Positions 12,176 to 59,696 of a stretch of 64,000 nucleotides of DNA are shown piece after piece. The first letter of the stretch is position 1. Every line of letters starts with the position of its first letter. This stretch comes from a virus. The notes below the pieces were generated by a model. The model searched no databases. It was not told where the DNA came from and saw nothing but the letters and a program-made list of their open reading frames with translations. The stretch lies in IMG/VR virus record IMGVR_UViG_3300043427_001513, positions 1 through 64,000 of that record. One strand, 5' to 3'. The translations under genes were made by a program, and so were the position numbers.

Positions 12176-12939
12176 AAACTACACCAGACGTAACAAAAAA
12201 TTATCTAATTGGGGCTCCATTGCCCCAACACGGTGGAAGATACAGTGTAATTCCACACGGTGACGTTATTAGAAAAGTCACAAAGAGTATTGAACAAAAC
12301 GGATTTGAGATCGAGAGAGAGCTTTATCGTAGTAGCATGGATGCACAAGTTGCAACAGGAATCTACCACATAAAGTCTTCTCTTGATAATGAGATGTCAA
12401 TGATGTTTGCATGGGTAAACAGCTACAACAAAACTAGAAGATTTCGTTGCGCTGTAGGATCTTATGTATCTGTATGCATGAACGGAATGATCTCCGGGGA
12501 TCTAAAGTCATATGGCAGAAAACATATGGGAAGTGCTGACGTAGAATATAGTCAAGTTATTTTTGACCAGCTGTCTCAGCTTAGTACTCACCATAAGAAT
12601 CTTGTTAATGACAAGAACGCAATGAAAGAGATCACAGTATCTAAAAAGCGTCAGGCAGAGCTCTTAGGTCAGCTTTTTATTAATGAGAACATTCTGACAT
12701 CTACCCAGCTTTCAGAAGTTAAACAAGAGATGGAAAATCCAACTTTTGATTACGGAACTCCAGACGACAACTTGTGGACTCTTTACAACCACGTAACTCA
12801 TGCAGTAAAGAGCACTCACCCAAGTCTTTGGATTGACCGTCTAAGAGATGTGCATACTTTCTTTACACAAGAGTACTCATCTTATATGAGACCTACATCT
12901 TCTGATTTTGTTCCTGAAAAAGGAGTATTTGCTTTATAA
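12172..12939 (+). CDS. DUF932-family protein
   Basis: The 255-aa product has the pattern of phage and plasmid DUF932 proteins. An N-terminal HGDVIRKV segment is followed by a strand-rich core (MMFAWVNSYNKTRRFRC). After it comes GSYVSVCMNGMISGD, the characteristic C-x-N-G turn, and a helical C-terminal half. DUF932 proteins are common near phage replication genes; their biochemical role is not established. The start is coupled to the polymerase stop (ATGA), and an intrinsic terminator follows the stop, so this gene closes the exonuclease-polymerase unit. Confidence 0.72.
   Translation: MKTTPDVTKNYLIGAPLPQHGGRYSVIPHGDVIRKVTKSIEQNGFEIERELYRSSMDAQVATGIYHIKSSLDNEMSMMFAWVNSYNKTRRFRCAVGSYVSVCMNGMISGDLKSYGRKHMGSADVEYSQVIFDQLSQLSTHHKNLVNDKNAMKEITVSKKRQAELLGQLFINENILTSTQLSEVKQEMENPTFDYGTPDDNLWTLYNHVTHAVKSTHPSLWIDRLRDVHTFFTQEYSSYMRPTSSDFVPEKGVFAL
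12209..12228 (+). other. Start-proximal GC-rich hairpin
   Basis: TTGGGGC (12209-12215) and GCCCCAA (12222-12228) form a perfect 7-bp stem with a 6-base loop, 37 bases inside the DUF932 gene and just after the polymerase stop codon. Confidence 0.55.
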
Positions 12940-12943
12940 TTAA

Positions 12944-12968
12944 GGGGGAGTACATCTCCCCCTTTTTT
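12944..12968 (+). terminator. Intrinsic terminator after the DUF932 gene
   Basis: GGGGGAG (12944-12950) pairs with CTCCCCC (12956-12962) across a 5-base loop and is followed by six T. It lies four bases beyond the stop codon. Confidence 0.9.
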
Positions 12969-12983
12969 AATAACTTTGTGATT

Positions 12984-13310
12984 ATGAGTAAACTAAACAA
13001 TCACGGAAGACCGCTTTTTGCTTTACTTAGAGAAGAAGATCATCTTCTTAAAACAGCAAACAGTATAGGTTGGATAGAATGGGCACCAGATGGAACATTT
13101 AAAAGTTTAAAACCAGAAATAGCTTTAGGACTAAGCTTAATACTTGATCCTAACAGACTTTCTTTTACCTGGTTAACAACGACAGTTGAAGAAATTGTAG
13201 AACAAACTGATGAATACATTAAATTCAGAACCACCAATAGCAACTATACGCTACATTATGGAACAGCAGAAAAGCAAATTCACAGCACCGAAGAAGAAGA
13301 TAACTCTTAA
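12984..13310 (+). CDS. Unknown phage protein, 108 aa
   Basis: I do not recognise this protein. It is a small acidic soluble protein with no cysteine and a C-terminal cluster of Glu/Asp (STEEEDNS). The ATG at 12984 is preferred over a GTG six bases earlier. A TAACTTTG element lies at 12971-12978, matching the Bacteroidota -7 consensus TAnnTTTG. It is so close to the ATG that it would imply a nearly leaderless transcript. The gene begins a new unit after the terminator and overlaps the next gene by 53 bases. Confidence 0.7.
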   Translation: MSKLNNHGRPLFALLREEDHLLKTANSIGWIEWAPDGTFKSLKPEIALGLSLILDPNRLSFTWLTTTVEEIVEQTDEYIKFRTTNSNYTLHYGTAEKQIHSTEEEDNS

Positions 13311-13887
13311 AAAGCTTCTTATCGAAATTAAGTATACTATTCTTTTTTGGAAAGGTAGATCCAAAGGAATGATACATACTCGTAATCTTAAGTTATCTGA
13401 TATCAGATACATATTTTTCCCTAAAGACTTTACAGAAAAGTATGGATATCTTGGAGCTACAATTCCTTCTAGCGGAGAACTATTTCAAGCACTTTACCCT
13501 CTTGTTCTTGCGTTAGACTTTCAAGCAAAGCCCAGCTGGTGTCCAAGATGGTTTCTTCGTTTTCTGCATGTGTTTGGAAATGATAAATCAATAGTAAGAG
13601 TACGTAACTTTAGACTGCATCTTCTTTTTAGAAAGATTACACAAGGAGTTGTATTCTGGGATTGGAAAACTAAATGGTACAGTTACGATTTAAGAATCAG
13701 TGTATCAGGTGCGAGACATCTTCAAAATCTTGCAAGCGCAATTGAGCACGACTTCTTTAAAAGAGGTTATACTGAAGAGCTTAAAAGTAAGATAAAGAAG
13801 TTAGATCCTGAAGCAAAGATTATAATGACTGATATCAAAAGCCTAGAAAGAATGTTAAACAATTTAGAAGAAAAAAATGAACAATAA
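13258..13887 (+). CDS. Unknown basic phage protein, 209 aa
   Basis: I do not recognise this protein. It starts with a very basic N-terminus (Lys-rich, FTAPKKKITLKKLL) and is rich in Arg, Lys, Phe and Trp throughout. It ends in a helical, possibly coiled-coil segment (DIKSLERMLNNLEEKNEQ). Nucleic-acid binding is plausible from charge alone. An alternative ATG at 13210 would extend it by 16 residues but would deepen the overlap with the preceding gene to 101 bases. It overlaps the ThyX gene by 11 bases. Confidence 0.7.
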   Translation: MEQQKSKFTAPKKKITLKKLLIEIKYTILFWKGRSKGMIHTRNLKLSDIRYIFFPKDFTEKYGYLGATIPSSGELFQALYPLVLALDFQAKPSWCPRWFLRFLHVFGNDKSIVRVRNFRLHLLFRKITQGVVFWDWKTKWYSYDLRISVSGARHLQNLASAIEHDFFKRGYTEELKSKIKKLDPEAKIIMTDIKSLERMLNNLEEKNEQ

Positions 13888-17252: not shown

Positions 17253-18077
17253 CTAAGCGATATCATTAGACTCTATAAGAGTGTATGTGTAATACTTAAA
17301 GCCTGCTTTGTTAGACTTTCTAGCTATTGTCATAAACTCTTCAAAATCTGCTGCACGCTTAAATACTTGACATCCTTCAGACCAGTTTTCTACAAACGTA
17401 GAATCAACACCGGCCTTGTGAATATTGATACCAAAAATTCCAGATTGAGTTTTAGCCTCATCATAAGTCATATCTCTGTTAGCATCGCGGTAAACAGTTA
17501 CATTACGTGCTTGCTTAAGAGCTTCATACTTACCTTGGTGAAGACCTAAAGCATGTGACTCAATATATTGACCAGGCACCAAACGTGCTACACCAGCCGC
17601 GTTATGATACTCTTTAACTCCCTTAGTTCCGGGATCTGTAGTATTCATCCACTCTTTATAGAACCATTCACCATTCTCTTTCCAAGAAACAGTAATTCTA
17701 TCATCAAAAGCATTAGTTACTTTCTTACCAGTATCAGAATTTCTTACACCAACAATATTAAGATGTAAGTCTTTCTCTTCAAACCACTTATACCCTTTAG
17801 CTTTAACCGCAGCTTCAATCTTATCCTTGCTGTATTTAACAGCAACAGGTGCAGCAGCTTTTGCAGGAGCTTTTGCAGGAGCTGCCGTAGCAGTAATGCC
17901 AAGCTTAGCAAGAGTACCAGGACCCACAATACCATCAGCAGTTAGTCCATTCTTCTTTTGAAACTCTTTAACAGCTTCTTCAGTCTTAGGACCAAACTTT
18001 CCTACAGGATCAACTCCAAGTTTTACTTGGATTTGACGGATAACTTCTCCTTGATCTCCTTTTTTGTAAACAGCCAT
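17253..18077 (-). CDS. Endolysin: peptidoglycan-binding domain plus L,D-transpeptidase-like domain
   Basis: Residues ~5-62 are a PG_binding_1 domain (GEVIRQIQVKLGVD, then KFGPKTEEAVKEFQKKNGL and GIVGPGTLAKLG). An Ala/Pro-rich linker (~63-80) follows. The C-terminal part has GIFGINIHKAG and, after 10 residues, NWSEGCQVF. This His...S-x-G-C arrangement is like the catalytic His/Cys of YkuD-type L,D-transpeptidases and related phage murein enzymes. There is no signal peptide, so export would depend on the holin encoded upstream. Its expected role is cell-wall degradation at lysis. The exact bond cut is not readable from the sequence. Confidence 0.82.
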   Translation of the reverse strand: MAVYKKGDQGEVIRQIQVKLGVDPVGKFGPKTEEAVKEFQKKNGLTADGIVGPGTLAKLGITATAAPAKAPAKAAAPVAVKYSKDKIEAAVKAKGYKWFEEKDLHLNIVGVRNSDTGKKVTNAFDDRITVSWKENGEWFYKEWMNTTDPGTKGVKEYHNAAGVARLVPGQYIESHALGLHQGKYEALKQARNVTVYRDANRDMTYDEAKTQSGIFGINIHKAGVDSTFVENWSEGCQVFKRAADFEEFMTIARKSNKAGFKYYTYTLIESNDIA

Positions 18078-18093
18078 GACTTATATTTTATAA

Positions 18094-18345
18094 TTAACCT
18101 TCTTCTTCTTCAGTTTTATCTTTCTTACCGAAGATTTTTCCAGCTTCAGCAATTCCAAAAGAACCGAGAACGATAATAACAAAAGAGTTAAAAATGGTAT
18201 CGCTGATTACAAGTTGATTACCCATAATACCGGTTACCACGTCTGCAATAGCAGTAATGCTCATTACAGCAAATGACAAGAAGCCAACAATAGTCTTCTC
18301 ATTCCAGTCATTGTCATCTTTAAAGATGCTCCAGAAGTTTTTCAT
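18094..18345 (-). CDS. Putative holin, 83 aa
   Basis: Two hydrophobic segments are visible, about residues 19-40 (IVGFLSFAVMSITAIADVVTG) and 46-68 (LVISDTIFNSFVIIVLGSFGIA). They are followed by a charged tail ending in EEEEG. Size, two-helix topology, a charged C-terminus and position directly before the endolysin fit a class II-like holin that would open the inner membrane at lysis. A candidate promoter motif lies just upstream (18372-18400), so holin and endolysin can be expressed as their own unit. Confidence 0.75.
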   Translation of the reverse strand: MKNFWSIFKDDNDWNEKTIVGFLSFAVMSITAIADVVTGIMGNQLVISDTIFNSFVIIVLGSFGIAEAGKIFGKKDKTEEEEG

Positions 18346-18371: not shown

Positions 18372-18400
18372 GTTGGCTTCATATAAAATATACGAAATTT
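18372..18400 (-). promoter_or_regulatory. Candidate late promoter, lysis genes
   Basis: On the minus strand this reads AAATTTCGTATATTTTATAT followed by GAAGCCAAC. It shares about 25 positions with 24510-24538 and resembles the motifs at 51328, 60292 and 63962. It is 27 bases from the holin ATG. Confidence 0.5.
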
Positions 18401-18821
18401 AGTCTAGTGCATCAACTAAAGCTTTCTTTACCGCGACAGAAAACTCCGTTCTCTCAAAAGGAAGGTTATCATCCTGAAGTTGCATTAGTGTTGCAGCAAC
18501 GTTTGTGTTAGCTTTTCCAACACCATGATAGACCTTAGATTCAAAAGTGATATCTACTTCTACAATAGTTTTCTTTTGCTTAAACTCAAAGGGTCCTATA
18601 CGTATTCCTTGAGTTGGAGCTTTAATTTCTGTGATTACTACATATACAGGTTCAGCACCTTTGACTTTTTCAGGATCACAAAATAAGTGACCTTGTTCTA
18701 GCATTAGATCTTCAGTCATTTGTTTAACACCAAACGTAAATTTGGCATTATCTACTCCTGCTAGATTAGCTTGAGAGGTCACACTTGCAATGTAAAAACA
18801 GTAGGCAATAATAGGATTCAT
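18399..18821 (-). CDS. Secreted CsgG-like small protein, 140 aa
   Basis: The N-terminus (MNPIIAYCFYIASVTSQA) looks like a short signal peptide. The mature part is strand-rich (PVYVVITEIKAPTQGIRIGP, then TIVEVDITFESKVYHGVGKA) and ends in a helix with AVKKALVDALD. The order of a substrate-like strand, G-x-G-x-A turn and terminal helix resembles the second half of CsgG-family proteins, without the first half. It is coupled to the PA14 gene (ATGA). The assignment is tentative; any small periplasmic or outer-membrane-associated protein is an alternative. Confidence 0.55.
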   Translation of the reverse strand: MNPIIAYCFYIASVTSQANLAGVDNAKFTFGVKQMTEDLMLEQGHLFCDPEKVKGAEPVYVVITEIKAPTQGIRIGPFEFKQKKTIVEVDITFESKVYHGVGKANTNVAATLMQLQDDNLPFERTEFSVAVKKALVDALD

Positions 18822-19942
18822 TGTATTGATTGGGCATTAGGGTTAGAGGAAGCGTTATGAATACCGGTTCCCATTATATAAAACCGGTTTTGATTTTCTA
18901 CTGTACGTATCTGAGTTGGGAAGTACGTATTGTAGTAGTTTGTATTAGCATTAGATTCTATAGCAGTTTTCTCTGCTTGAGTAAAGACATATTTATTATG
19001 TAGAGATCCCGTGGTATACAGCCTGTAACAGAAATAAATGTCTTCCCACTCAAACGTAGAAGTATTATCACAGTCACAGGTATAGAAGTCCCAGTCTTGT
19101 AGTGGACCCAAATCACCTTTCATAAACATCATATAGATCAAGCCAAACTCTGGTACATTGTGAAACTTCTGAGAAGTATTAACCGTTACTCTGTAAGGTC
19201 TATTTAGAGTGTTTGAAAACATTACTTCTCCGTTTATGTTTGTATTAGCAGTGCCCTGGTTTACCCAGCTTGAACTTGCTACCCCAATCTCATTGGTTTG
19301 TAAAGACCAATTAGACTGAGAAGGTCTTCTCCATAGTAAGACTAATCCGTCTCCTCCACCATATTCTTGCATTCTAGTAATAACTGTATATTGTTGACCA
19401 GCAACCATGTAATAACTCCCATACTTATACGGACCTGTTCCTTTACCTCCATAAAATTCAATTACAGATGTTCCGTTAATCATTAAGTCTCCACCATCAT
19501 CAGATGTAATACCAAATGAATATGTACCAGTTTCTGCAGCAACCATTGTAAAGGTTACTTCTGTAGCATAGTAATCTCCCCAACTAGGTACAGATGCTCC
19601 GGCTGATGTAAGTGTTGTATAATTATAGAAGTTTAAAGAGCTTGTAGCATTCATATTACCACTCCACCACAAAGCAGTTGCGGCATAAGCAGTATTAAAC
19701 AACTTATTCATCTCAGTTCTATTCATAGGATACTGAGCATACTGAGAGGTATTTCCGTTACCGTAGTGAGTTCTGAAAATCCTTACTGAAGTGATTCCAT
19801 TAGCTGTTGTAACGTAGTGCTCTACAGTAACCGGAATACCGCTAACATCCTGTGTACCAATTGGTGTCAGAGTAATAGTTTGAGAATACGCTCCAATTGA
19901 TACCCACAGTATAAATATTTGCAACAAAATAAACTTTCTCAT
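18818..19942 (-). CDS. Secreted protein with PA14-like domain, 374 aa
   Basis: A clear signal peptide opens the protein (MRKFILLQIFILWVSIGAYS, cleavage near GAYSQ). Residues ~110-210 have the PA14/GLEYA layout: YYATEVTFTMVAAETGTYSF, GITSDDGGDLMINGT, and a YTVITRMQEYGGGDGLVLLW strand pair. The DDGG-type turn is typical of the carbohydrate-binding surface loops. The C-terminal 150 residues have several Cys in a CDCDN-containing loop. It may bind glycans at the host cell surface. It overlaps both neighbours by four bases, so it is co-translated with the CsgG-like and beta-barrel proteins. Confidence 0.72.
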   Translation of the reverse strand: MRKFILLQIFILWVSIGAYSQTITLTPIGTQDVSGIPVTVEHYVTTANGITSVRIFRTHYGNGNTSQYAQYPMNRTEMNKLFNTAYAATALWWSGNMNATSSLNFYNYTTLTSAGASVPSWGDYYATEVTFTMVAAETGTYSFGITSDDGGDLMINGTSVIEFYGGKGTGPYKYGSYYMVAGQQYTVITRMQEYGGGDGLVLLWRRPSQSNWSLQTNEIGVASSSWVNQGTANTNINGEVMFSNTLNRPYRVTVNTSQKFHNVPEFGLIYMMFMKGDLGPLQDWDFYTCDCDNTSTFEWEDIYFCYRLYTTGSLHNKYVFTQAEKTAIESNANTNYYNTYFPTQIRTVENQNRFYIMGTGIHNASSNPNAQSIQ

Positions 19943-21429
19943 AGCAACATCTTTGTTCCGGTTGATAACTGAAAGTTAAGAATATCCGCGTTCCATTGAT
20001 AAGCACCTGAGAATGAAATACTCCACTTAAACTTGTCGGTAAGTTTGAAGTCTACATTTGCTAGAGGTACAATAAGAATTCCAGACTTGTACCATTGTCC
20101 CTCATAATAGAATATAAAAGGTGAGTATACTCCTAGAGCCATTACATTAGCAGAGACAACCTTTCCTCCTTTAAAGTTTGTAAAGCCTCCGCCCACCAGT
20201 GACCAGTTCTGGAACCAGCTTTCTCCAATTTGACCTAGAGTAAAGTTACTTCCTGCCATACCAGTAAACTTTCCAAGTTTTTGTGCAGACAATAAAGTAA
20301 CGGTGTTAAACCAGTCAGATTTAAAGTTGGTCATAAATGAGTTTGAGCCTACACCCATAAATCCTTTAGATTTATAAGAGCCATAAAAAGTAAGGTTTGC
20401 TACGTTCTCTCCTGTAGTATAGTTCAGGTTAATACCTTTAATAAAGTTCTGCTTGGTATTGACATGTGTTACAGACGTATTGAATCTGAAGTTGTCATTT
20501 TGTTTGCTGATATCATTACCATTTCTAATAACAACAAAGTCCCCTGATCCAATCAGAGAACCTCTACCAATCTTTTCCTGCTTGTTCTTGGGTTTATTAC
20601 CTCCACCACCTCCTCCAGATTCACCAGAAGAGCTTTCTGATTCACCACCAGATGCCGTAGTAGTATTATCACTACTACCTGCAGTAGAACTTGGTTCTGA
20701 ACTACCTGATGAAGTACCACCTGAAGTGCTACCTCCACCAGTACCACCTACTCCACTTTCTGGTTGTCCTCCACCTGTACTTCCACCACCTTCTGGTCTA
20801 CCTGATCCTCCACCACCTGACGAGCCTGAAGAACCGCCCGAACTATTTCCGGATCCTCCGGAGTTAGAACCGTTTGAACCATTAGAACCACCACCTCCAG
20901 AAGTAGAACCACCATTAGACCCAGAGCTACCTGAGGATGATCCACCTGAAGAGCTGCCAGAGCTGCTGCTATTGTTATTGTCATTAGAATTACCACCAGA
21001 AGTTGACGATGAACCATTTGTGCTGCCTGTTGAAATTGAACCTGTACTTACTGAACCACCACCTAAGCTGCCAGCAATGCTTGTACTAATAGAAACAATA
21101 CCGCTAACATTATTAGCAGTGTTAGTTCCAATATTAGCATTACTGTTATTCGCATTAGACGAACCATTACCCGCACAAGGATTGCTTCCTGGAGGAAACT
21201 GGGAATTAATTTGAGCAACCCATGCTTCATATCCTCCTGATTGTAATTGTGCTGCGGTAAAACTTTGATACTGCCCAGCATAAAACATTACTACTGTTCC
21301 ACTGGTCTGAGATAAAGTTACACTATTAAGAATGCCTGTACAAGGATCCGTATAGTTATAAGTAAAGGTTTGACCACTTACAACTATAGACCCCAGCAGG
21401 AAGACAATCCATAATAGTTTACCATTCAT
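19939..21429 (-). CDS. Secreted Ser/Gly-rich protein with C-terminal beta-barrel-like domain
   Basis: The protein has a signal peptide (MNGKLLWIVFLLGSIVVSGQ) and a small Cys-containing domain to residue ~90. A ~190-residue low-complexity stretch of Ser, Gly, Asn and Thr follows. The C-terminal ~200 residues (from about 290) have alternating hydrophobic strands with aromatic ends, e.g. ISFSGAYQWNADILNFQLST and a terminal KMLL. That C-terminal pattern is typical of outer-membrane beta-barrels. It may place a flexible Ser/Gly-rich passenger on the cell surface. It overlaps the CsgG-like lipoprotein by 11 bases. The low-complexity part could alternatively be an extended linker. Confidence 0.68.
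   Translation of the reverse strand: MNGKLLWIVFLLGSIVVSGQTFTYNYTDPCTGILNSVTLSQTSGTVVMFYAGQYQSFTAAQLQSGGYEAWVAQINSQFPPGSNPCAGNGSSNANNSNANIGTNTANNVSGIVSISTSIAGSLGGGSVSTGSISTGSTNGSSSTSGGNSNDNNNSSSSGSSSGGSSSGSSGSNGGSTSGGGGSNGSNGSNSGGSGNSSGGSSGSSGGGGSGRPEGGGSTGGGQPESGVGGTGGGSTSGGTSSGSSEPSSTAGSSDNTTTASGGESESSSGESGGGGGGNKPKNKQEKIGRGSLIGSGDFVVIRNGNDISKQNDNFRFNTSVTHVNTKQNFIKGINLNYTTGENVANLTFYGSYKSKGFMGVGSNSFMTNFKSDWFNTVTLLSAQKLGKFTGMAGSNFTLGQIGESWFQNWSLVGGGFTNFKGGKVVSANVMALGVYSPFIFYYEGQWYKSGILIVPLANVDFKLTDKFKWSISFSGAYQWNADILNFQLSTGTKMLL
20580..21140 (-). repeat. Low-complexity Ser/Gly-coding tract
   Basis: This stretch of the 496-aa gene codes almost only for Ser, Gly, Asn and Thr in irregular short repeats. 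It creates long spurious open frames on both strands. No exact tandem unit is conserved, which suggests compositional rather than recently expanded repeats. Confidence 0.75.
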
Positions 21430-22165
21430 ACTGGTCCATGCGTTTCATAAGGTTTACCGTAGCAACCTCTAACGCACGTTGTGTAGCAACACCCACAGTT
21501 GACTGATCAAAGCCCATTGTAGGATTCTTAAAGAAGCCTTCACCAACTTGTGTAGAAGTTCCTTGACCAGAAGCAACAATGTATTGTGAGTTATCTACGT
21601 TGACCATTTTAATCTGGATACCGATGATAGTAGTATTAGTCTTCTCTACTTTACCCTTATTATAGGTTTCGCCGTAAGAAGTAGAGAATTCATAGATCTC
21701 TGCGTAGACAATGTATTTAGGAAGAACTACAGAACCTACATTCAGTTTAGTTCTACCATCACCCATGTCATTGAGATCTTTCTCCCATACATCAAGCATT
21801 TGATTAACAATAGCTTCCTTTTCTTCCGCATATAAGAATCTTTGAGTCACCTCAAAGTTCTCTACAATACGGTTAGATACACCCATACCAACTCTTTTGT
21901 CTCTGAGTTCCGGGAACATTTCCCATAGTTCTTTATTGACGTTAAGATTAGCGATTTGAATTACTTTCTTTTCTCCAGTAAATACAGGAAATGTACTCAG
22001 TGGTTGAGCTTTTTCAAACTCAGCTTGATACTGCGTTGTAGATATAGAAGATGAGCAAGAAGTTGCAACACCGCCTACAATACCAAGTCCAATTACAATA
22101 GCCGCAATGCCAATAACACTGGCAACCATTGCAATGATTTCTTCTCTTTTAGTTTGATGCTCCAT
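21419..22165 (-). CDS. CsgG-like outer-membrane lipoprotein
   Basis: The start at 22165 is chosen because the longer frame to 22198 would use TTG, and because GAAAGAG precedes this ATG. The N-terminus has a basic region (HQTKREE), a hydrophobic stretch and a lipobox-like VATSC. The mature part follows the CsgG layout: KKVIQIANLNVN, a GVSNRIVENFEV helix, RFLYAEEKEAIVNQML, then PKYIVYAEIYEF and IQIKMVNVDNSQYIVASGQG. CsgG proteins are lipoproteins that form an oligomeric outer-membrane channel for curlin secretion. Whether this protein forms a channel is inference; CsgE and CsgF partners and curlin repeats are not seen. Confidence 0.62.
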   Translation of the reverse strand: MEHQTKREEIIAMVASVIGIAAIVIGLGIVGGVATSCSSSISTTQYQAEFEKAQPLSTFPVFTGEKKVIQIANLNVNKELWEMFPELRDKRVGMGVSNRIVENFEVTQRFLYAEEKEAIVNQMLDVWEKDLNDMGDGRTKLNVGSVVLPKYIVYAEIYEFSTSYGETYNKGKVEKTNTTIIGIQIKMVNVDNSQYIVASGQGTSTQVGEGFFKNPTMGFDQSTVGVATQRALEVATVNLMKRMDQYEW

Positions 22166-22541
22166 CTCTTTCAGCTTTTTCTTTCTTAAGTCTTGCAATA
22201 CGCTCTGCAGTAGTCTCTTTCTTTTCTTCTACTACTGGTGCAGGTGCAGGTGCAGCTACTTCACGTACAGTTTCTTTAATAATGGTCTGTCCACCTCCAG
22301 AATTGTTCTGCTGTTGAGTATTATTATTCTCAATGTTTAGAACAATTGGTGCAGCCTGAGCTGCAGGTTGTCCCTGCTCTGCTACTTGCTCTGTCTTTAC
22401 TTCAGACTCTTCTTCAACACCGAAGATCTTGTTAATATTCGTAGTAGCCCAGATACCAAATCCAGTTACAGCTGTGCCAGCTACACCTAGAATTGTTTTC
22501 TTAAGTCCTGATAGTCCACCTTCTTGTGTTTCTTCACTCAT
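22149..22541 (-). CDS. Inner-membrane anchored protein with acidic/Ala-Pro-rich tail, 130 aa
   Basis: A single hydrophobic segment (about residues 16-32, TILGVAGTAVTGFGIWA) is followed by an acidic stretch, a Gln/Asn-rich part (LNIENNNTQQQNNSGGG), an Ala/Pro-rich stretch and a charged helix ending KEKAERD. This is a TonB-like or spanin-like topology, anchored in the inner membrane and extending into the periplasm, but no TonB C-terminal domain is visible. It overlaps the CsgG-like lipoprotein by 17 bases, so the two may form an inner/outer membrane pair. Function unknown. Confidence 0.62.
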   Translation of the reverse strand: MSEETQEGGLSGLKKTILGVAGTAVTGFGIWATTNINKIFGVEEESEVKTEQVAEQGQPAAQAAPIVLNIENNNTQQQNNSGGGQTIIKETVREVAAPAPAPVVEEKKETTAERIARLKKEKAERDGASN

Positions 22542-22545
22542 GGTT

Positions 22546-24474
22546 TTAATGTTTAATGATTTTGTAAAATTTCTCTCTGTCGTTAGTTACCAGCTTTACA
22601 ACATACATGCCTTTAGGAAGGTCTCCAAACCAAATGCCTTGGGTCTGGAATCCTCTTTCTGTAAGGTTGTTGCTAACTGACTTAACAAGCTGACCCTGAG
22701 AGTTGTAGATCAGCGCGTTAAACTTTGTAAAGTCTTCTAAGTAGAAGTCTGCAATTAACCAATGATTGGTAATCTCTGATACTGGGTTAGGATATACAAT
22801 AAATCCTGTAAGAAGAGCCAGAGTATGCTCATCCATTTCTGCTTTACCGTTTACTACAGAACCATCGTTAGGTGACGGACGTAGAGACATATCGTAAGCA
22901 TTCTCATCACCTGCAGCTTTGTTAAAGATTGCAAGTGGTGAAGTTCTCCATCCAAGAATAGACTTAACTCTGAATCGAAAAGTAAATACTTGTGTTGGTC
23001 CATCAAGAAGACTGGGGTTCATCTTATCTTCGTGTCCCGCCCAGAAAACTCCCTTATCTGTAAATGTCATAAATGATGTCCACTTTGAAGCAGCGTCCCC
23101 CATATTTAGAGACACAAACTCAAATACCGCAGTATCATATGCAATCCCTAACTGCATTGCTCCAACCTTATTACCAAACGTGTACACTGTCACAGGAACG
23201 TCCATATAGTTATCAGTTGTCACAATCAGTTTAGGTATTCTAAACTCAATTGAATCTGGCTTATTAGAATAGTATACAGCCGGATCAAGAATGTAATCTG
23301 TACCTGCTCCAGGATTTGCCATCTTAGCAAGAATAGTAGCAGGGTTGTTGTAACCAGAACTAGTAGCATCACCTACTACATAGACATAAGGCTCAAGAGT
23401 ATCTAGACTATTTACTACAGTATCAATCATATATACTCTAGGTGTATTAGCCCAGTTAGGAGCAACTGTTGCAGAATTTGCAATAGTCCATTCTGAAGGC
23501 CAAAGAACTGATACGTTATTAACACCAGTAAATAATTGATCCCAATCTGCTTGGTTAAGAGCAAGTCTGTTAAATACAGCAAATGCATCTGATACTGTTA
23601 CACTTTGGCTTTGGTTAACATCACCTTCGTACCATTCAATTCCTGCTAGAGTATCTTGAGCAGATACATGGTTAGCTAGCTTATATGCATCTACAATAGT
23701 AAGTGCACCACCATCAGACATAGAATCAGTTTGTGCAGCAATCTTAAGATTCCAATAGTTTGTATCAAGCGGATGTGAAAATTCTACCAGCCCCGCCATG
23801 TTGGTTGAGTCAGTAGAAATAGTTTGCCATGTTGCAAGAGGAGTAGACTTGAGTCTCTTAGTTGCACTAAACCAAACACCTTGAGCTGGTGATCCATCAG
23901 CATTTCTAACCTTAACTGGAAATACCATTTGTGTCATTTGGAATGCTCCACCATAAGTATACAGCTCTAGATTAACGTCAGTACCATTACCAATAGTAGC
24001 CAAGTTATTGTAACTACTTGATCCAGAGATAGCTACAGGAGTTACAACACCATCATATGCTGACGAATGAAAAAGACGGAGCTTAAACATAGCGCCGTCT
24101 GCCCAGTCAAAGTTTGGAGTTGAACCAGTGTAAGTAGCAACAACGTTAATATATCCTGTGTTGTTGAAGTAAGAACCGTACTTATCGGTAATTGATTGTG
24201 CAGTAGGTCCCCAATACATTACAGCATTGGAAAACTTAGCATTGTCATAGAACAAACGAAACTGTACAGCCTTTACCGGAGTAACAGTTGGGTTTGCAAA
24301 GTGAACGTAAATATCTGTATAAGTAGCTGGATAGTTGTCCAGGGTAAACAGAGTATCTACAAGAATGTATGGATCATTACTTGCAGGTGCTACAAGTATT
24401 TCATTTGCACCATTCTGTGCAAACGCAGAAATAGAAATTAAGGAGGTTACCAGACTCCACCAAGGTTTTTTCAT
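22546..24474 (-). CDS. Secreted cohesin/dockerin-like protein with T9SS type A sorting domain
   Basis: The ATG at 24474 gives a good signal peptide (MKKPWWSLVTSLISISAFAQ); the upstream frame would use TTG. Residues ~20-170 and ~420-530 are beta-rich and resemble cohesin-type domains (VQFRLFYDNAKF and MQLGIAYDTAVFEF with following turns). Residues ~260-310 contain GDVNQSQSVTVSDAFAVFN, a dockerin-like calcium loop. The last ~85 residues match the T9SS type A sorting domain: FIVYPNPVSE, then ALIYNSQGQLVKS, and LPKGMYVVKLVTND ending FYKIIKH. That domain directs cleaved secretion or surface attachment by the host type IX system. A phage-encoded T9SS substrate is unusual. It is the first gene of the secreted-protein operon. 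Confidence 0.82.
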   Translation of the reverse strand: MKKPWWSLVTSLISISAFAQNGANEILVAPASNDPYILVDTLFTLDNYPATYTDIYVHFANPTVTPVKAVQFRLFYDNAKFSNAVMYWGPTAQSITDKYGSYFNNTGYINVVATYTGSTPNFDWADGAMFKLRLFHSSAYDGVVTPVAISGSSSYNNLATIGNGTDVNLELYTYGGAFQMTQMVFPVKVRNADGSPAQGVWFSATKRLKSTPLATWQTISTDSTNMAGLVEFSHPLDTNYWNLKIAAQTDSMSDGGALTIVDAYKLANHVSAQDTLAGIEWYEGDVNQSQSVTVSDAFAVFNRLALNQADWDQLFTGVNNVSVLWPSEWTIANSATVAPNWANTPRVYMIDTVVNSLDTLEPYVYVVGDATSSGYNNPATILAKMANPGAGTDYILDPAVYYSNKPDSIEFRIPKLIVTTDNYMDVPVTVYTFGNKVGAMQLGIAYDTAVFEFVSLNMGDAASKWTSFMTFTDKGVFWAGHEDKMNPSLLDGPTQVFTFRFRVKSILGWRTSPLAIFNKAAGDENAYDMSLRPSPNDGSVVNGKAEMDEHTLALLTGFIVYPNPVSEITNHWLIADFYLEDFTKFNALIYNSQGQLVKSVSNNLTERGFQTQGIWFGDLPKGMYVVKLVTNDREKFYKIIKH

Positions 24475-24509
24475 CTTGTACAAGATTAGTGTTACGCATT
24501 AATGTTGGA

Positions 24510-24538
24510 GTTGGTTTCATATATAAAATACGAAATGA
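24510..24538 (-). promoter_or_regulatory. Candidate promoter of the secreted-protein operon
   Basis: On the minus strand it reads TCATTTCGTATTTTATATAT followed by GAAACCAAC, 36 bases from the ATG at 24474. It closely matches 18372-18400. A TTGCCGGCAA palindrome (24543-24552) lies directly upstream and could be an operator. Confidence 0.55.
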
Positions 24539-27700: not shown

Positions 27701-30257
27701 GTGCAGCCTTAAGTTCAATAAGTCTTTTTTGGTTTGTGCTATTAACCTTTGATATAAGATTCTCAACACCCGTGTAGGTTTCTAAGAACTTTGAATAACT
27801 AAGGATAATACTAGCAAACTCCGGCTTTCCATAGTTATTAGGATTACTAGCATACTTCTCAAAAGACTCCAAGTCTTGAATAGCAAACTCAGTAAGTCTA
27901 CCAACAGCTGCGTTTAACTGAGTACCATTAAGAAGAGCGTAGTCTTCAATGTCTTGCCTAACAGCATTCATAAGAACTGTAAGCTTTACAATAGACTGTT
28001 CTCTCTTACTTTTTCCCGCCTGTGAGGAGAAACCTTTCTTTTGACTCAGCATTCTTTCAAGCTGGCCTTTTCTAAGTTGTAGTTCTCCCAGAATATTATT
28101 GAGTTCAACTACTAATCCAGGATTGTCTTTGTTGTCTTCAGCTTCTTTAGTCGCTTCTTCTCTAGCGGTTGACTCTGATTTTGTTTGAGAAGATCCGATT
28201 GGTTCCGCTTCATCCTTTGTTCTTACGTTATCAGTTACAGTAACAATCTTTGCAATGTGCTCCCTATTACCTGATACAGAATGATCTACAGATCCTTCAA
28301 AAACAAGATCAGTAACTGTTTGATTATCACCTGTTTGACCCTCAGGAACAATAACATTTACGTGCATTGTTCTAGTCCTAACAACATTTACACCCAGAGC
28401 ATAGAGCATCTCTGCATATGATCCTACTTGAATAGCATGTTGGGCTTTAGTAGAGAGCTTCTGTCCTTTAAATGCACCATCTGTTTGAACATACGATGTA
28501 TTATAAGATGATACCTCCACTCCGGAGTCAGTAACAAACTTCTTGTTAATGCTATTCTTTGACGCTTTAATGTCTACAACTTCTGCAGTACCGTCAGGAT
28601 TAATTACAAGGAGGTCAACCGAACCAGCTACCATAGATGTAGGATCAGAAACTATTACCTGAGGAATAATAATAGCATTATCCTGGAAGCCGTTTTCTTC
28701 ATCCGCAAATACTTTGACAAGCTCATTGTAGATTTTTTCCAGCAAGTCATCAGATATACCTTGATCAGCAGTTAGCGCAGGTAAACCCAAGTCTTGACGT
28801 CTTGCATTTGTTTTTGCAATCATCTTTTGAGCTTCTTCTTTAGCTTCTTCAAATGTCCTACCTGAAGTAAAGCTTTCAACCAAAGCATCTATCTGATTAC
28901 CAAACAGCAAGTTAAGTGAATTCTTAATCTCTTTTTCAGCAGGAAGAGTGCCCTTCATCTTTGTAGTTACCGAAGTGTACTCTACACCGTCTTGATCATA
29001 GTACGTGTGAGTTTTATCTACTAGGGTAACTTGATTAGGATTGTTAAAGATTACAGTATCAATTACATCTTTTTGCTGTTGTGTACCGTTCTTATAAACT
29101 TGCTCTACATAAGGACGCAGATCTTTTTGGATATTGTATCTAACCTTATCGTCAAGAGTAATATCAACATCAAAGCTTAAAGCTTCTGTTAGTATACCTT
29201 CGGCAAGCTTTTTAAAAGAAAGATCCTGATTAAGATCTTTAATCTTTACTGTAGTTACTTTGGTAATTGGATCAATAGTAGCATATCCAGCAAGACCAGA
29301 AAGATACTTTTTAACCGTTTCAATAAACCATTCATAGAAGTTATTGATATAATCTACAAGATCCTTTCGAGTACCTGTCTCTTCAAACTTCTTATTTACT
29401 ACACGAGATAAAACCTGTGACACAAGTTCAATCTCCATGTCTCTAGCATCAAAATTCTTTAGTCCCAGGTAAGCATTCTTAATCTGCTGTACTAGTGCAG
29501 GAAAATGAATTGCTGCATCACCAACAAGCTTTTGAAATAGCTCCGGCTTTTCTACACTTAAAGCAAATACAAAAGGATGCAACACCTCTTCTACAGCAAT
29601 TTCATTTGTTACACGACCTCTAATTAGATATGCAGTGCCTTTATGATAGAAGCTTTTAACATTATCAAAGTTGACGTCTGTTTTCTGCCAGTCTGCAATA
29701 GTATCGTGTATAGCCTTTGCTTCAGCAGGGCTTACAATTTTTATTGTTACTCCTGGTATAGTGCTCTTAAGATGATTAAGAAGAGGGCTAAGATTGTTTA
29801 CAGCTGCGCTTTGAGGTATATAATCTTTTACTCTTTCAGGAAGTATTTGAATAGATACTGATTTAGCATGCTGTATAACTCTATACATACCTTCAGTAAT
29901 CCTGTTGGCTTGCAAATAGTTAATTGCCGCTCTAAGATTTCTATCTCTAACAGAAGCAATTGTGTGTCTAGCGTTTTTTGGTGACTGAGTAATAAAAAGC
30001 TTACCATTAAGTCTATGAGCAAATCCTTTCTTAATAAGATTGTTTTCAATTGCTCTTACAGGATCTTGTAAGCTACTCGTTGGAGTAGCTTTAATATCCC
30101 GCATAATAGTAGATGCTTGAATTGTTGAGGGAAAGTCATCAGTTTTTGTACGACTCTGATATTCGTCAACAATGGCTGAAACAACATAGTAGTTGTTATA
30201 GACTCTCATAAGTTCCTGAAAACCAGGATCATTTGTATTATAACATTTTGCAGCCAT
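24786..30257 (-). CDS. Very large virion cargo-type protein with PD-(D/E)XK nuclease motif (1823 aa)
   Basis: The ATG at 30257 shares a base with the TAA of the RNA polymerase gene (TAATG), so translation is coupled; a TTG three codons earlier is less likely. About residues 221-229 carry an E-E-x-x-H-P motif (AVEEVLHPF). Residues ~545-565 have the RecB-like nuclease pattern GSVDLL with D548, then EVVDIKAS with D562-x-K564 and a following Gln/Tyr helix. The remaining ~1200 residues are long helical regions and a late hydrophobic stretch (LTYVGFNPFSALNNIIYGRI). As the immediate neighbour of the virion RNA polymerase it is expected to be packaged and injected. The nuclease could act on host DNA or on phage DNA ends. 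Confidence 0.8.
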   Translation of the reverse strand: MAAKCYNTNDPGFQELMRVYNNYYVVSAIVDEYQSRTKTDDFPSTIQASTIMRDIKATPTSSLQDPVRAIENNLIKKGFAHRLNGKLFITQSPKNARHTIASVRDRNLRAAINYLQANRITEGMYRVIQHAKSVSIQILPERVKDYIPQSAAVNNLSPLLNHLKSTIPGVTIKIVSPAEAKAIHDTIADWQKTDVNFDNVKSFYHKGTAYLIRGRVTNEIAVEEVLHPFVFALSVEKPELFQKLVGDAAIHFPALVQQIKNAYLGLKNFDARDMEIELVSQVLSRVVNKKFEETGTRKDLVDYINNFYEWFIETVKKYLSGLAGYATIDPITKVTTVKIKDLNQDLSFKKLAEGILTEALSFDVDITLDDKVRYNIQKDLRPYVEQVYKNGTQQQKDVIDTVIFNNPNQVTLVDKTHTYYDQDGVEYTSVTTKMKGTLPAEKEIKNSLNLLFGNQIDALVESFTSGRTFEEAKEEAQKMIAKTNARRQDLGLPALTADQGISDDLLEKIYNELVKVFADEENGFQDNAIIIPQVIVSDPTSMVAGSVDLLVINPDGTAEVVDIKASKNSINKKFVTDSGVEVSSYNTSYVQTDGAFKGQKLSTKAQHAIQVGSYAEMLYALGVNVVRTRTMHVNVIVPEGQTGDNQTVTDLVFEGSVDHSVSGNREHIAKIVTVTDNVRTKDEAEPIGSSQTKSESTAREEATKEAEDNKDNPGLVVELNNILGELQLRKGQLERMLSQKKGFSSQAGKSKREQSIVKLTVLMNAVRQDIEDYALLNGTQLNAAVGRLTEFAIQDLESFEKYASNPNNYGKPEFASIILSYSKFLETYTGVENLISKVNSTNQKRLIELKAALDSAGTLLDKSFTEFAAAFVTNNTLNTDLTESDIRAMLEKTVDINKADALLESMAASSDTVLALIDKIYKAQKAKLMFENDLFVQEANEKGNALLAASKAAGIKDTDAYMFMFSKNQDGKLNGRYVQKIGYQYWEKLYALRAETLDEEGKPAQYKKTDTLKGQELKDAISYNIKLYAAKKVYNSFKNAEKITENGFEDGDYHRYSNEFKTARAQYAEFRGGRWRPKAGVTAEEYAGYLNKYFRKAPPYMSPIVVEGKFTGEVREVKDRYFVRDEYIEIREQAATGENMLDSAYEEIMKPTDALGQARKDYYDWWTNQHEKGSIASLPRDIESSITGKIPRIQKNFFNKIKDMDEGRGAAVLKMVGKLVNVFGIKTKVYPKVYQTDEAGDLVRTPPVFFTADLKSQKRIDSLKTQLEELVNQKKAGTIGIKEYLAERKRLSGILTAEENKITPDDINTDMTQNLIAFRTMASNFEAMNAVEDTILALKKIIDQREYTPAGGELSQKVTAKGREMLSMSGEKKMSNVQDRLNNWLEMTFYNEGAFEKSVAEQLVSTVLKYTSLTYVGFNPFSALNNIIYGRISNAIETAGAQFYDRRAIMRSTKELNIALGGFMQGLGSKAAFMTGPDKYRNHKPNSKYEALVDHFKMIRKYQSGEGREGISDVLSFGYWLQEGGEYMIQSKTGVAMLMSKQLTNSITGETSSIYDALDYDQATGKVSVKDGFEFTEDQRAELSRNIWGMNEYIHGNYADEDKMVIQKYSLGLLAAQFHKWVWPSFKARFKKSSFDERFGVYTEGRYRTMVKMLGYVWGAHGSIKERYKEANGVLTPTEIANIQKTLAEIGFFLGSLALFAIFRGLKDGVDDDDKELKRLLGLLQFQADRTQSEITTFVDPTEYARLLKNPIASSRSLGEFAEAINYSADYFLTPDREDKYYQRTERKGDPKFIKQWEDALPVVRSINRWKSFDSVERWYIKD

Positions 30258-33200
30258 TATTCGCAAGTTTTATTTTTCTCTATAGAGCTTTGTACAAATT
30301 TCATTCTTTTCTCGTAAGGTGCACTCTTCATCATTTGAGCTCCTTTCCATACAAGATCTGCTTTCTCTCTAGGAACACCCTGTCCAACAACATATTCAAT
30401 AAACGAATCCTTGTCATCTAGAACATCCTTCAATTCTAAAGTTAAACCATTTGTAGGAGAGTTTGGCAAAGTTCCGTTCTCTTCTTCAACGTTTTCATCA
30501 ACTTTAAAGTCAGCAGCAACCTCAGCAGGTTTCTTACCAGAATACTTTGATATAGTGTTTCCTTGAGAATCAAAGTAAGTAATACCGTTTACAGGATCAA
30601 TAACAAACGTTACACCATTTTGAGAAAGAATATCTCTAGGACTTCCTTGTACAGAAGACTCTGGAGTTTTTTCTACAGGCTTCTGTTGAGGTGTTTCTGT
30701 AGAGTTTTGCTCAACAGGATTAGCTGTTACTTGTCTTTCTTGACGGCGCTCGCGCTTTATATCAAGAATCTCTGTTGTTGTTGGAACTGAACCAAAGACA
30801 AAACCAATTGGTGTAGTCTTAGCTGTACCAACACTATCCGCCTTCTTATAAGTAAACTTAGTACCAAGCGGAAGATAGTATTCAAAACTACTCTGTGGTT
30901 TTACTTTACCACTGAAGGCAGAAGTTTCCAAATAGTAAACTTCGTTATCGTACATAAGAGCTGTGGGTGCAAAGAATCCTCTTGCTTCTCCAGCATTAGG
31001 TATAAATCCGATCTTCAACAATTCCATGAAGTTCTTATTCATAACTGCCTTATTATCATTCTTTTGCTCTTCTGTAAGGCCAGTTCTTTCAGTAAAGCTT
31101 ACACCTTCAGATTCATACTTAATAACTTCTCCTTTACTCATACCAGTAAAGATGTCAATGCTGATAGTGCCGTCTTCTGAAACACTAATACCCGGAGCAG
31201 CATCTGCAGAATCTTTATACTTAGGAATCTTTCTTAAGTAAAGAGAAGCGCCGTAGTTCTTGTTAGAAATTGTAGCATGCTTCATGTAATTCTTTACAAA
31301 AGAGTCCATAAGATTAAACTCATTTTGACCAAAGACTTCCATAAAATCTTTATCCGTAGCTCTTTCATTGTCAAGAAGAGCTCTTACGCCTTCAGTAGCA
31401 AAATGGAACTCTTCCTGTAAAACAAAAGGTATAACATTAGATATAGAGCCAGACTTAAACTGACCACCATCTTTAACCAGTATGTAGTTGCTAATAGCAG
31501 TAGCTGAAATAGGATCTTCATTATAGAGCTCTACAAAAGCTGCCTGCAATCTTTGAAGCTGAATAGGTTCAATCTTAGACCAAGTGTTTGTTTCAATGTA
31601 ATCAAAACCTGACTTGTTCGCTACAGAGTCTGCAGAGAATGCATGAATAAACCTATCAAGAAACTCGTTTGTACGACCTTGATCTTTAAACTTCTCCTTA
31701 AGTTTCTCTACATAGTCAACAATAGTAGGCATGCCTTCTTTATAGAAAAGAAGACTGTTAGATAGAGTATACTCAATCTCTTGAAGTCTACCTTGATTTT
31801 TTAGATAGTTTTTATAAGCTAGGATATCAAAGTAAGAAACCATGTCTCTTGTAAGCTTATTCCGGAACTCCTCTAACTTGTAAGATTTTACAGCTGTTGA
31901 TTCCAAAATACTCTTCTTAAGCTTCATGAATTTAGGAGTTCTTCTTACAAGAACCTGTCTTGCTTTCTCCTTCATGTCATTAAGAATAGATATCGCAGTT
32001 GCTATATAAGGATCAGAATCAAATACTTCCTTCATTCCTGGGTATATATTGCCCTCGCTTTCTTTAGTTATAGCATCATAGTCTTCAAAAACAGTATCAA
32101 AACTTTGTTCTGTAGAGTCTCCAATACCTTTTACAAGACCTGAGATATTAGATATGCGTATAAACTGTTTAGTGTAGTCTTGCAAATTCATAAACTGCTT
32201 AGCTACAGCTAAATCAAAATCAAGGTTTGAACCTCCCTCTAAATCTTTAGCAATTGCTTCAGACAAAGATCTAATATTAAACCCAAGCTTAGCTTTTTTG
32301 AGTCTTTCATTTAGAAGATCCGTTGTTTCAAAAGCAGGCTTGCCGCCAACCGTCAAAGCTTTTCTTAAAATCTCTAAAGGATCTCCGCTCTTTTGCTCTC
32401 TGCTAAACTCATCTCTTGAAAGCTCTAGCTCTTTATAATAACGCTTTATCAAAGGTTGATTAATAAAGAGAACCGCTTCTTTAAGAGAAACACCAACAGC
32501 AACCATATGGGCAACATGACCAAGTGCATCACGATTCAAACCTAGGATTGCAGCGAGTCTTTCTTTAGCGTTATCTGTCATTGCAGAAACGAGTGCAGAA
32601 ATAATATATCCTTTTCTTTGACCGTCAGAACCTACAGAGTTACCATAGTCATTATAAGAAACCGTATTCTTACCTTGAAGACCAACATAAATATCAGCCT
32701 TTGCCTGAATACCATGCTTCTGAAGATAATTCCACGCAAGCAAAGATTTTACTGCTGAACCGATGTTTACAGCACCCTCCTTGTTGTTTTTTCTAGCACG
32801 AACCATTCCAGCAAAAGTGTTGTGCTGGAATGCTCTTTCTGAGAACAAAGTGCTAATTTCAATCTTAAGATTAGCTTTTTGATCGTCATCAATTTCTAAT
32901 CCATCTACTATTGTAGACAGATCATCAGTTAAAATCTTCGTAAGATTCTTCAAAGGATCTACGTGTGCTACCTGGAATGCTGGAGCAGCATCTTTTACAT
33001 TGTCTCCTGTTTTAGTTTTTCTAGGGGCAGAAGTATAATCGTTAAAAGTGAGCGCCGTTTTTAACTGCATAATCTCAGTATCAAGAGCACCAACATATAA
33101 GTCGTGTCCTTTCTTATCATATGCTTTTTGATATTCTCCTTCATTAGAAGGTAGACCCATGTTCTTAAGAACGTCCGCAATATAACGTTGCTTTACATTT

Positions 33201-59025: not shown

Positions 59026-59696
59026 TATCTTGCAATGTTCTGTTTATTGTGCTCACCATCTGAAGGATAGCTTGCAGTACTCATGATATCTTTTAATACG
59101 TTTTGCTCAATCTCTGCAAAGAGAAAGTCAGGGACGTTAAAAGGTTGTGATTGACGAGGGTCACAGTCATCTTTAGGATCGCAGTTCCACTTTGTAACAT
59201 CATCTTCAAAGATGCCCTCTATAAGAATTGCATCCCATGGAATGTTGGGCATATACAAGTAACCATTAAGAAACCAGTAATACTTAGTATTGTTATACTT
59301 AAAGCTGGTAGTCTTGGTCATAGAAGTATATGTACCAGGGTGTGTAGGTTGCAGCTCAATTGAGGTATCAATAGAACTCACAGTTCTAATGATAGGTCCC
59401 CAATAACCCTGCATAAAATTTGGAAGCTTTTCCTTAGTGCGCTTAATAGTAATACCACTCTTAATTCCAGAGCAGTGTGCCTCTACCTTATCTACATCTA
59501 TAAGCTCTACAAAAGGTAAAGTCTGAAAAACAGAGTTAAACTTCATCAGCTTATTCTCTGAATCTTGTCTTCTAAGGTACAGCGCTGTGTACTTGAGTAT
59601 CAGGCTATAGAGGTATCTATCGGTAATAAAAGCATCTTGCCTTACCGATTTGATTTGATTTCTTACCCTTGATACAACTTCACCTATGGTTGTCAT
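59025..59696 (-). CDS. Tail ring protein, 223 aa
   Basis: The protein begins with a helical region (IGEVVSRVRNQIKSVRQDA, then LYSLILKYTALYLRR) followed by a beta-rich half containing FVELIDVDKVEAHCSGIK, a WNCDPKDDCDPRQ Cys/Asp loop and PFNVPDFLFAEIEQN. It belongs with the small connector or ring proteins between portal and tail hub in crAss-like podoviruses. Its name in that scheme cannot be fixed here. It overlaps the next gene by one base and follows the 194-aa gene after one base. Confidence 0.7.
   Translation of the reverse strand: MTTIGEVVSRVRNQIKSVRQDAFITDRYLYSLILKYTALYLRRQDSENKLMKFNSVFQTLPFVELIDVDKVEAHCSGIKSGITIKRTKEKLPNFMQGYWGPIIRTVSSIDTSIELQPTHPGTYTSMTKTTSFKYNNTKYYWFLNGYLYMPNIPWDAILIEGIFEDDVTKWNCDPKDDCDPRQSQPFNVPDFLFAEIEQNVLKDIMSTASYPSDGEHNKQNIAR

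Follow-up and report, generated by a model that had tools for sequence, protein, structure and literature searches.

What could a phage gain from a tight operon of secreted and membrane proteins, standing next to the genes with which it lyses its host? This question is raised by the virus record IMGVR_UViG_3300043427_001513, of which bases 1-64000 were analysed; this stretch of 64,000 nucleotides is called the window below, and the record of 69,489 bases from which it comes may be incomplete. The operon comprises six genes on the minus strand, running from 24474 down to 18399 with gaps of at most 4 bases or overlaps of 4-17 bases, and downstream of them lie a holin-like gene and then an endolysin gene. 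In the order of reading we call the six genes T9 (a protein with a cohesin domain and a sorting domain of the type IX secretion system, T9SS), TM (a single-helix membrane protein), CsgGlip (a CsgG-like lipoprotein), SGbar (a Ser/Gly linker followed by a beta-barrel), cargo (in the window a PA14 protein) and sCsgG (a small CsgG-like protein). We suggest, with the chances about evenly balanced, that the six genes form a mobile envelope module specific to phages, by which the surface of the Bacteroidota host is decorated at a late stage of infection. No prior description of this gene set as a module was found in the literature searched. The module is a conserved viral system of the surface or secretion type, and possibly of a new kind if the docking model set out below holds.

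The evidence begins with conservation. With CsgGlip alone as the query 59 viral loci were found, and a profile-guided scan of viral sequences gave 308 confirmed relatives, the best 80 of which were retained. The order T9-TM-(holin-like)-CsgGlip-SGbar-(variable genes)-sCsgG is kept in nearly all of about 100 viral loci, as judged from six-frame open reading frames (ORFs) and family hidden Markov models (HMMs). Removal of near-duplicates (CsgGlip identity of at least 95%) left a non-redundant set of 31 loci with full flanks, where T9, TM and SGbar are each found in 31/31 and sCsgG in 29/31. These loci were retrieved via CsgGlip, so that its own presence is given by construction; the presence of the other genes is independent. 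On the bacterial side, the scan of species genomes returned relatives in only two assemblies, both of them metagenome contigs, and the profile search of 395 Bacteroidota genomes returned one carrier, the same metagenome-assembled genome as in the former scan. Since the gene set is nearly absent from bacterial genomes yet widespread in viral contigs, we take the module to be a property of phages, and its recent capture from a host was rejected on the same ground. The two bacterial metagenome bins with the phage module (L062 and L063) are probably phage contigs binned with Bacteroidota.

The phages that carry the module are of several kinds. The crAss-like structural protein of the window is present in 3 of 30 tested records (the record of the window and two close relatives), a contractile sheath is matched in 9 other records of these 30, in 7 of them over the cut-off, and module-bearing contigs reach 373 kb. 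Between the window and L005 the CsgGlip proteins share 75% identity, and between the window and the sheathed phage from which L009 comes they share 70%. By these comparisons the module moves between unrelated phages, namely crAss-like phages, sheathed myoviruses and large-genome contigs. A preliminary description of this DNA had read the operon as a dedicated system for surface remodelling or for passage through the outer membrane, and conservation across unrelated phages supports a dedicated system of the envelope or surface over a random capture of host genes; an isolated capture, which the same description named as the outcome that would speak against it, is at odds with the 308 relatives and the single carrier among the 395 Bacteroidota.

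The strongest clue, which had been missed in the preliminary description, is the combination of a common C-terminal region in the cargo proteins with the cohesin domain of T9. In the alignment the signal peptide of T9 has typical n and h regions and ends in AQ, and its sorting domain lies over the curated cut-offs of both TIGR04183 (36.9 bits, cut-off 23) and PF18962 (35.3 bits, cut-off 27). The genes between SGbar and sCsgG differ from phage to phage. The N-terminal domains of their products vary among PA14, Lectin_C (9e-15), Laminin_G_3 (3e-13), GEVED (5e-13) and Ig_7, and despite this a C-terminal region of about 150 residues is common to many of them. It is homologous to the middle of T9 itself (hhalign probability 99.5, E 3.7e-22 over 153 columns), and in hmmsearch it finds T9 of the window at 4.6e-12 and T9 of the relatives at values down to 5e-27. 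The two halves of the cargo diverge independently: between the window and L002 the N-terminal halves are 35% and the C-terminal halves 66% identical, and between the window and L004 the values are 83% and 51%. The common region contains a DxNxDG-type loop, and the Dockerin_1 model matches 14 of the 35 scanned proteins at E<=1, with the best value of 2.3e-4. The resemblance is weak, and we therefore term the region dockerin-like, not dockerin. Signal peptides are present on T9, SGbar and nearly all cargo proteins; the T9SS sorting domain is on T9, and the cargo is without a T9SS signal.

The arrangement of T9 can be followed in a cultured phage. In Flavobacterium phage immuto (MW353176, 160 kb, host Flavobacterium sp. 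LMO8) the module lies at 11.6-16.4 kb, where T9, TM, CsgGlip, SGbar and sCsgG stand beside a C-type-lectin gene, gp13, and a DNA/RNA endonuclease gene. Its T9 (L061, 9799-11623) consists of two adjacent genes: the product of gp14 has a cargo-type C-terminus, and that of gp15 comprises solely the cohesin (6e-9; PF00963 36.6 bits) and the T9SS domain (6e-12), the split lying exactly between the docking-type region and the cohesin anchor. An origin of the split by frameshift or as a pseudogene was rejected, as both halves are intact, with a signal peptide on each, in all four annotated immuto records. As a cultured carrier, immuto on Flavobacterium sp. LMO8 makes the module testable.

Several variants of the module were also observed. 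Three contigs of 202-289 kb (L127, L151 and L159) have no recognisable T9 and encode instead a protein of 763-766 residues, plus small lipoproteins; the one tested, from L151, has Lectin_C and a below-cut-off cohesin (0.00035) and is without the docking region. In L127 a TonB-dependent-receptor-like outer-membrane protein with plug and barrel is encoded between CsgGlip and SGbar (11348-13825). Inside the module of L020 there is a secreted DNA/RNA non-specific endonuclease (12253-12837; 2.2e-24), with similar genes in L022, L026, L034, L037 and others; such an enzyme could degrade the DNA of incoming phages while this is in the periplasm, or could make the lysate thinner. A transposon TnpB-like gene is inserted in the variable part of the module in L018 (12880-13809). 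An extra secreted protein of about 150 residues with the motif DVGDGWxxxVDSAL follows sCsgG in L049 (9118-9567) and also in L020 and L045; it occurs in many relatives, is absent from the window and has no family match.

The remaining proteins are those which could form an apparatus across the envelope. On its AlphaFold2 model (pLDDT 65, pTM 0.52) CsgGlip has the CsgG fold: its 19 best PDB matches in Foldseek are all CsgG (best E 1.8e-8, TM-score about 0.53), followed by PelC and similar lipoproteins. Long strands are seen in the model at residues 151-169, 172-189 and 195-210, and the residues of the hairpins, inspected by eye in the monomer, are charged. The earlier assignment as CsgG-like thus gains strong structural support and none from Pfam, where CsgG (PF03783) matches 0/20 module-bearing records at E<=1 and 6/14 control genomes, and no operon or cargo protein matches any Csg family, csgE, csgF, csgA and csgB included. 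PDB HMM searches with the alignments of CsgGlip, sCsgG and the barrel gave no real match, and the fold comparison alone worked. sCsgG is related to the CsgGlip family (hhalign probability 92, E 5.7e-7). The lipobox of CsgGlip, already pointed out for the window protein, is present there and is kept, by pattern, in 55 of 70 distinct members, the window's included. SGbar ends in a predicted outer-membrane barrel, whose best PDB matches in Foldseek are outer-membrane barrels, the closest being 4y25 (E 1.4e-4); the barrel-like end that had been read from the sequence is thus backed by a 14-strand model. Its Ser/Gly linker is variable in length and is preceded by a small conserved domain. TM, with its single helix, is a predicted inner-membrane anchor.

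A repeated motif bears on the expression of the module. The sequence TTTCGTATnTTnTATAT stands ahead of both T9 and the holin-like gene and has only these two copies in the window, with 0 expected in shuffles. The copies are near-identical, with the consensus TTTCGTATnTTnTATATGAArCC, and the motif is recognisable at both sites in three crAss-like relatives (L002-L004). It is probably a phage-specific promoter, and its placement suggests that the module and the lysis pair are co-regulated from two starts. Because the motif recurs at both places in the three relatives, the lysis pair seems to have a transcription start of its own. The site at 24510, given in the preliminary description as the one candidate promoter, stands; its being the only one does not, in view of the copy at 18372-18397. 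A possible RNA structure near the lysis promoter scored no better than shuffles. That the module would be expressed alongside the lysis genes, or close to them, is in keeping with a late role.

Table 1. Features of the envelope module and its neighbourhood in the window (positions within the window; all on the minus strand).
Feature	Position	Strand	Basis or remark
Promoter-like motif TTTCGTATTTTATATATGAAACCAAC upstream of the module	24510..24535	-	two copies in the window; same place in L002-L004
T9: signal peptide, N-terminal beta domain, dockerin-like middle, cohesin, T9SS type A sorting domain	22546..24474	-	
T9 middle region, dockerin-like, about residues 214-380	23344..23844	-	homologous to cargo C-termini
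T9 cohesin domain, residues 427-510	22954..23205	-	PF00963 35.1 bits, cut-off 24.1, E 1.8e-8
T9SS type A sorting domain of T9, residues 563-643	22555..22797	-	PF18962 and TIGR04183
TM: 130 residues, N-terminal transmembrane helix (LKKT...GG), Pro/Ala/Glu-rich tail	22149..22541	-	family alignment, 40 sequences
CsgGlip: CsgG-like lipoprotein, 248 residues, ATG start	21419..22165	-	Foldseek and lipobox VATSC
SGbar: signal peptide, small N-domain with two conserved Cys, Ser/Gly linker of about 200 residues, C-terminal beta-barrel	19939..21429	-	alignments
SGbar C-terminal beta-barrel, last 213 residues	19942..20580	-	AlphaFold2 pLDDT 84.3, pTM 0.70, 14 strands
Cargo gene of the window phage: signal peptide, PA14 domain, common C-terminal region	18818..19942	-	Pfam PA14 3.6e-7
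Common 150-residue C-terminal docking-type region of the cargo	18821..19270	-	cargo C-terminus alignment
sCsgG: small CsgG-like protein	18399..18821	-	hhalign to CsgGlip family
Second motif copy, upstream of the lysis pair (holin-like and endolysin)	18372..18397	-	motif scan
Holin-like protein, two transmembrane segments	18094..18345	-	alignment
Endolysin: peptidoglycan-binding and phrog_3000 domains	17253..18077	-	PG_binding_1 1.5e-14, phrog_3000 2.6e-34

All six ORF positions of the preliminary description were found again on the minus strand (Table 1), and its domain calls hold, with Por_Secre_tail of T9 at 1.4e-8 and Cohesin and PA14 at the values listed. The signal peptides that it had read are present in general; that of sCsgG is only marginal in the window and classical in its distant relatives. 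Alternative TTG starts are found for T9 at 24483 and for CsgGlip at 22198.

We propose that surface display works as follows. T9 would reach the cell surface through the T9SS that the host itself provides. The cargo would cross the outer membrane through a complex of the CsgG-like rings, SGbar and TM, or would be held by this complex. The dockerin-like C-terminus of the cargo may dock onto the cohesin of T9, and the cell would thereby be coated, late in infection, with proteins that bind carbohydrates. The displayed lectins might mask or cross-link surface sugars, which is among the least certain steps, and least certain is also the effect: competing phages might be excluded, the progeny might be kept from re-adsorbing to the dying cell and its debris, or neighbour cells might be kept close. 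Any purpose named here (superinfection exclusion, avoided re-adsorption or clumping) is a guess, the masking of the surface being the likeliest of these. We also suggest, more tentatively and with the balance leaning against it, that the whole acts as a viral cellulosome-like scaffold, where the hijacked host T9SS plants the cohesin anchor and the phage's own apparatus of CsgG ring, barrel and TM delivers interchangeable dockerin-tagged lectins, thus forming a transferable module that controls binding to the dying cell.

Several points weigh against surface display by docking. The Dockerin_1 matches always lie under the Pfam cut-off (best 21.7 bits against 22.9), and T9 of the window is matched only at E 0.14. 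The N-terminal domain of T9, considered as a second cohesin, has no detectable homology to cohesin, and this idea was dropped. The confidence of the CsgGlip model is modest, and its hairpins look too charged for spanning a membrane, so that CsgGlip may be a periplasmic ring and not a pore; on the model we regard the two as equally likely. Finally, the close link to lysis genes suits equally or better a role in lysis, in which the module would be the outer-membrane step, with TM and CsgGlip as the inner and outer members of a spanin pair; once holin and endolysin had done their work, the outer membrane would be weakened by SGbar and the surface proteins. The preliminary description had already raised the possibility that the operon replaces spanins missing from the lysis cassette. 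In the 31 non-redundant loci, which are related to each other and whose counts are thus not independent trials, a holin-like or endolysin gene adjoins the module in 26, an endolysin lies within 2 kb in 23 (at most 3.9 being expected at random placement), and 9 of the loci have the holin-like gene within the module. Spanin genes often overlap, as do the adjacent genes of TM and CsgGlip near the lysis genes here. Because the heuristic lipobox scan of window ORFs of at least 40 residues, outside which the last 5.5 kb of the record lie, gave CsgGlip and no other lipoprotein candidate, no conventional spanin pair is apparent in the window, and no other outer spanin either. A lysis role has also been proposed for CsgG/CsgF of phage Melnitz (PMC9004378). 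However, of 27 full-context loci of the holin-like family, 15 are without any module gene within 10 kb, and the lysis genes of immuto, namely the holin-like gene and the putative chitinase beside it, are about 27 kb away from its module. The module is thus not an obligate part of the lysis cassette. The lipobox is absent from 15 of the 70 distinct CsgGlip proteins, the lysis pair carries its own copy of the promoter-like motif, and lysis on its own does not readily account for surface lectins, PA14 proteins and a cohesin protein predicted to leave by the T9SS. We consider the lysis role a serious rival to surface display, though rather unlikely. The holin-like gene was at first inferred to be a part of the module, since its only annotated carriers were the four immuto records, which also bear the module; this was dropped when a wider scan showed a common phage family that often occurs without it.

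Surface display has also to be weighed against three explanations in which the proteins serve elsewhere. The CsgG fold, the CsgG/CsgF modules known in SAR11 and OM43 phages and the long Ser/Gly/Asn-rich segment of SGbar would be expected of a divergent curli (type VIII) secretion system, which exports an amyloid or adhesive fibre and makes infected cells clump for the capture of siblings. This is very unlikely: the absence of Pfam CsgG from the 20 module-bearing records, on which true curli membership was rejected, is joined by the lack of Csg-family matches among the operon proteins, and the Ser/Gly segment links to a barrel, varies freely and shows no curlin-type repeats. Phage particles often bear lectin, PA14 and Ig-like domains, and the module stands near late genes in the window, so the proteins might be decoration proteins of the virion. 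To this we give hardly any credence, as the signal peptides, the lipobox of CsgGlip and the T9SS sorting domain point outside the cytoplasm, where tailed phages assemble, and the module is passed among phages whose virions are unrelated. Bacteroidota that degrade polysaccharides typically have cohesin, dockerin-like, PA14 and T9SS-substrate parts. The presence of such parts here, with the TonB-dependent-receptor-like protein of the variant L127, would agree with a captured bacterial operon for nutrient acquisition or adhesion that gives the infected host a metabolic benefit. The near-absence of the module from Bacteroidota genomes makes this extremely improbable, and so does the cargo, where the sole enzyme is a nuclease and no glycoside hydrolase was found.

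Surface display by docking has partial precedents among known systems. Phage CsgG/CsgF modules are described in pelagiphages and in methylophage Melnitz, with proposals ranging from sibling capture to lysis timing (PMC7029224, PMC9599517, PMC9004378). These type VIII modules are similar to the present one in being multi-gene envelope modules with a CsgG-fold protein that are spread across phage families, and their function is disputed between adhesion, superinfection exclusion and lysis timing. However, they have recognisable CsgG and CsgF, in some cases with the curlin proteins CsgA/B, and are carried by phages that infect Proteobacteria; in the present module CsgG escapes detection at the family level, no CsgF, CsgA or CsgB was found, the phages are linked to Bacteroidota, and the module has in addition an outer-membrane barrel, a TM anchor, a T9SS-type cohesin protein and lectin cargo. 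Cryophage encodes T9SS-tagged cargo, including a PA14 protein, and a link to superinfection or competition was suggested (PMC7468147). In both cases phage products carry T9SS type A sorting domains, one product has PA14, and the set varies between variants; in Cryophage, however, several enzymes have each their own sorting domain, whereas here one conserved anchor has it and the variable proteins are without. As in cellulosomes, one cohesin protein, here a putative surface protein, is combined with secreted proteins which share a dockerin-like C-terminus and have interchangeable N-terminal domains of carbohydrate-binding type. Unlike in cellulosomes, the dockerin match stays under the curated cut-off, the region exceeds a dockerin in size, the cargo consists of lectins and not of glycosidases, and the docking is a putative one. 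No report of a cohesin/dockerin-type assembly in phages was found in the literature searched.

Two further likenesses concern the membrane proteins. With the periplasmic ring lipoproteins of the PelC/CsgG/FlgT type the module shares CsgGlip, whose model matches CsgG and then PelC and which is a lipoprotein in most members; it differs in having no family match at the sequence level and a second, smaller paralogue in the operon, and CsgGlip was compared as a monomer model. Two-component spanins consist of an inner-membrane coiled-coil protein and an outer-membrane lipoprotein; the likeness lies in two neighbouring genes that overlap, one for a single-TM protein and the other for a lipoprotein, close to the genes of holin and endolysin. 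Here, however, the lipoprotein is a CsgG-fold protein of 248 residues, the tail of TM is Pro/Ala/Glu-rich, and the pair is always found within a larger secreted set.

If surface display is right, a kit for rebuilding the outer surface of the host before lysis is common to many phages of Bacteroidota from several lineages that are unrelated. It would be a new viral use of the type IX secretion system and the first phage assembly of cohesin/dockerin type in the literature searched. It also bears on how Bacteroidota phages without recognised spanins deal with the outer membrane or get through it.

As for the virus itself, PHROGs and PADLOC gave no match for any of the six window proteins, and a nearest-relative DNA search among annotated phages gave no match to the window. 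The structural protein at 59028-59696 has matches in crAss-like phages of Cellulophaga, in phages of Flavobacterium psychrophilum and in an uncultured crAss-like phage from the gut; on the basis of its crAss-like matches we assign the window virus to the crAss-like phages, and we infer that its host is most likely flavobacterium-like. We note that the window also contains, at 30257-43813, an open frame of 4518 residues beside one of 1826 residues, giant proteins as in crAss-like phages. Near the end of the record (65443-69233; L193, 2444-6234) there are three tandem genes with LamG-like repeats, which probably encode tail or adhesion proteins.

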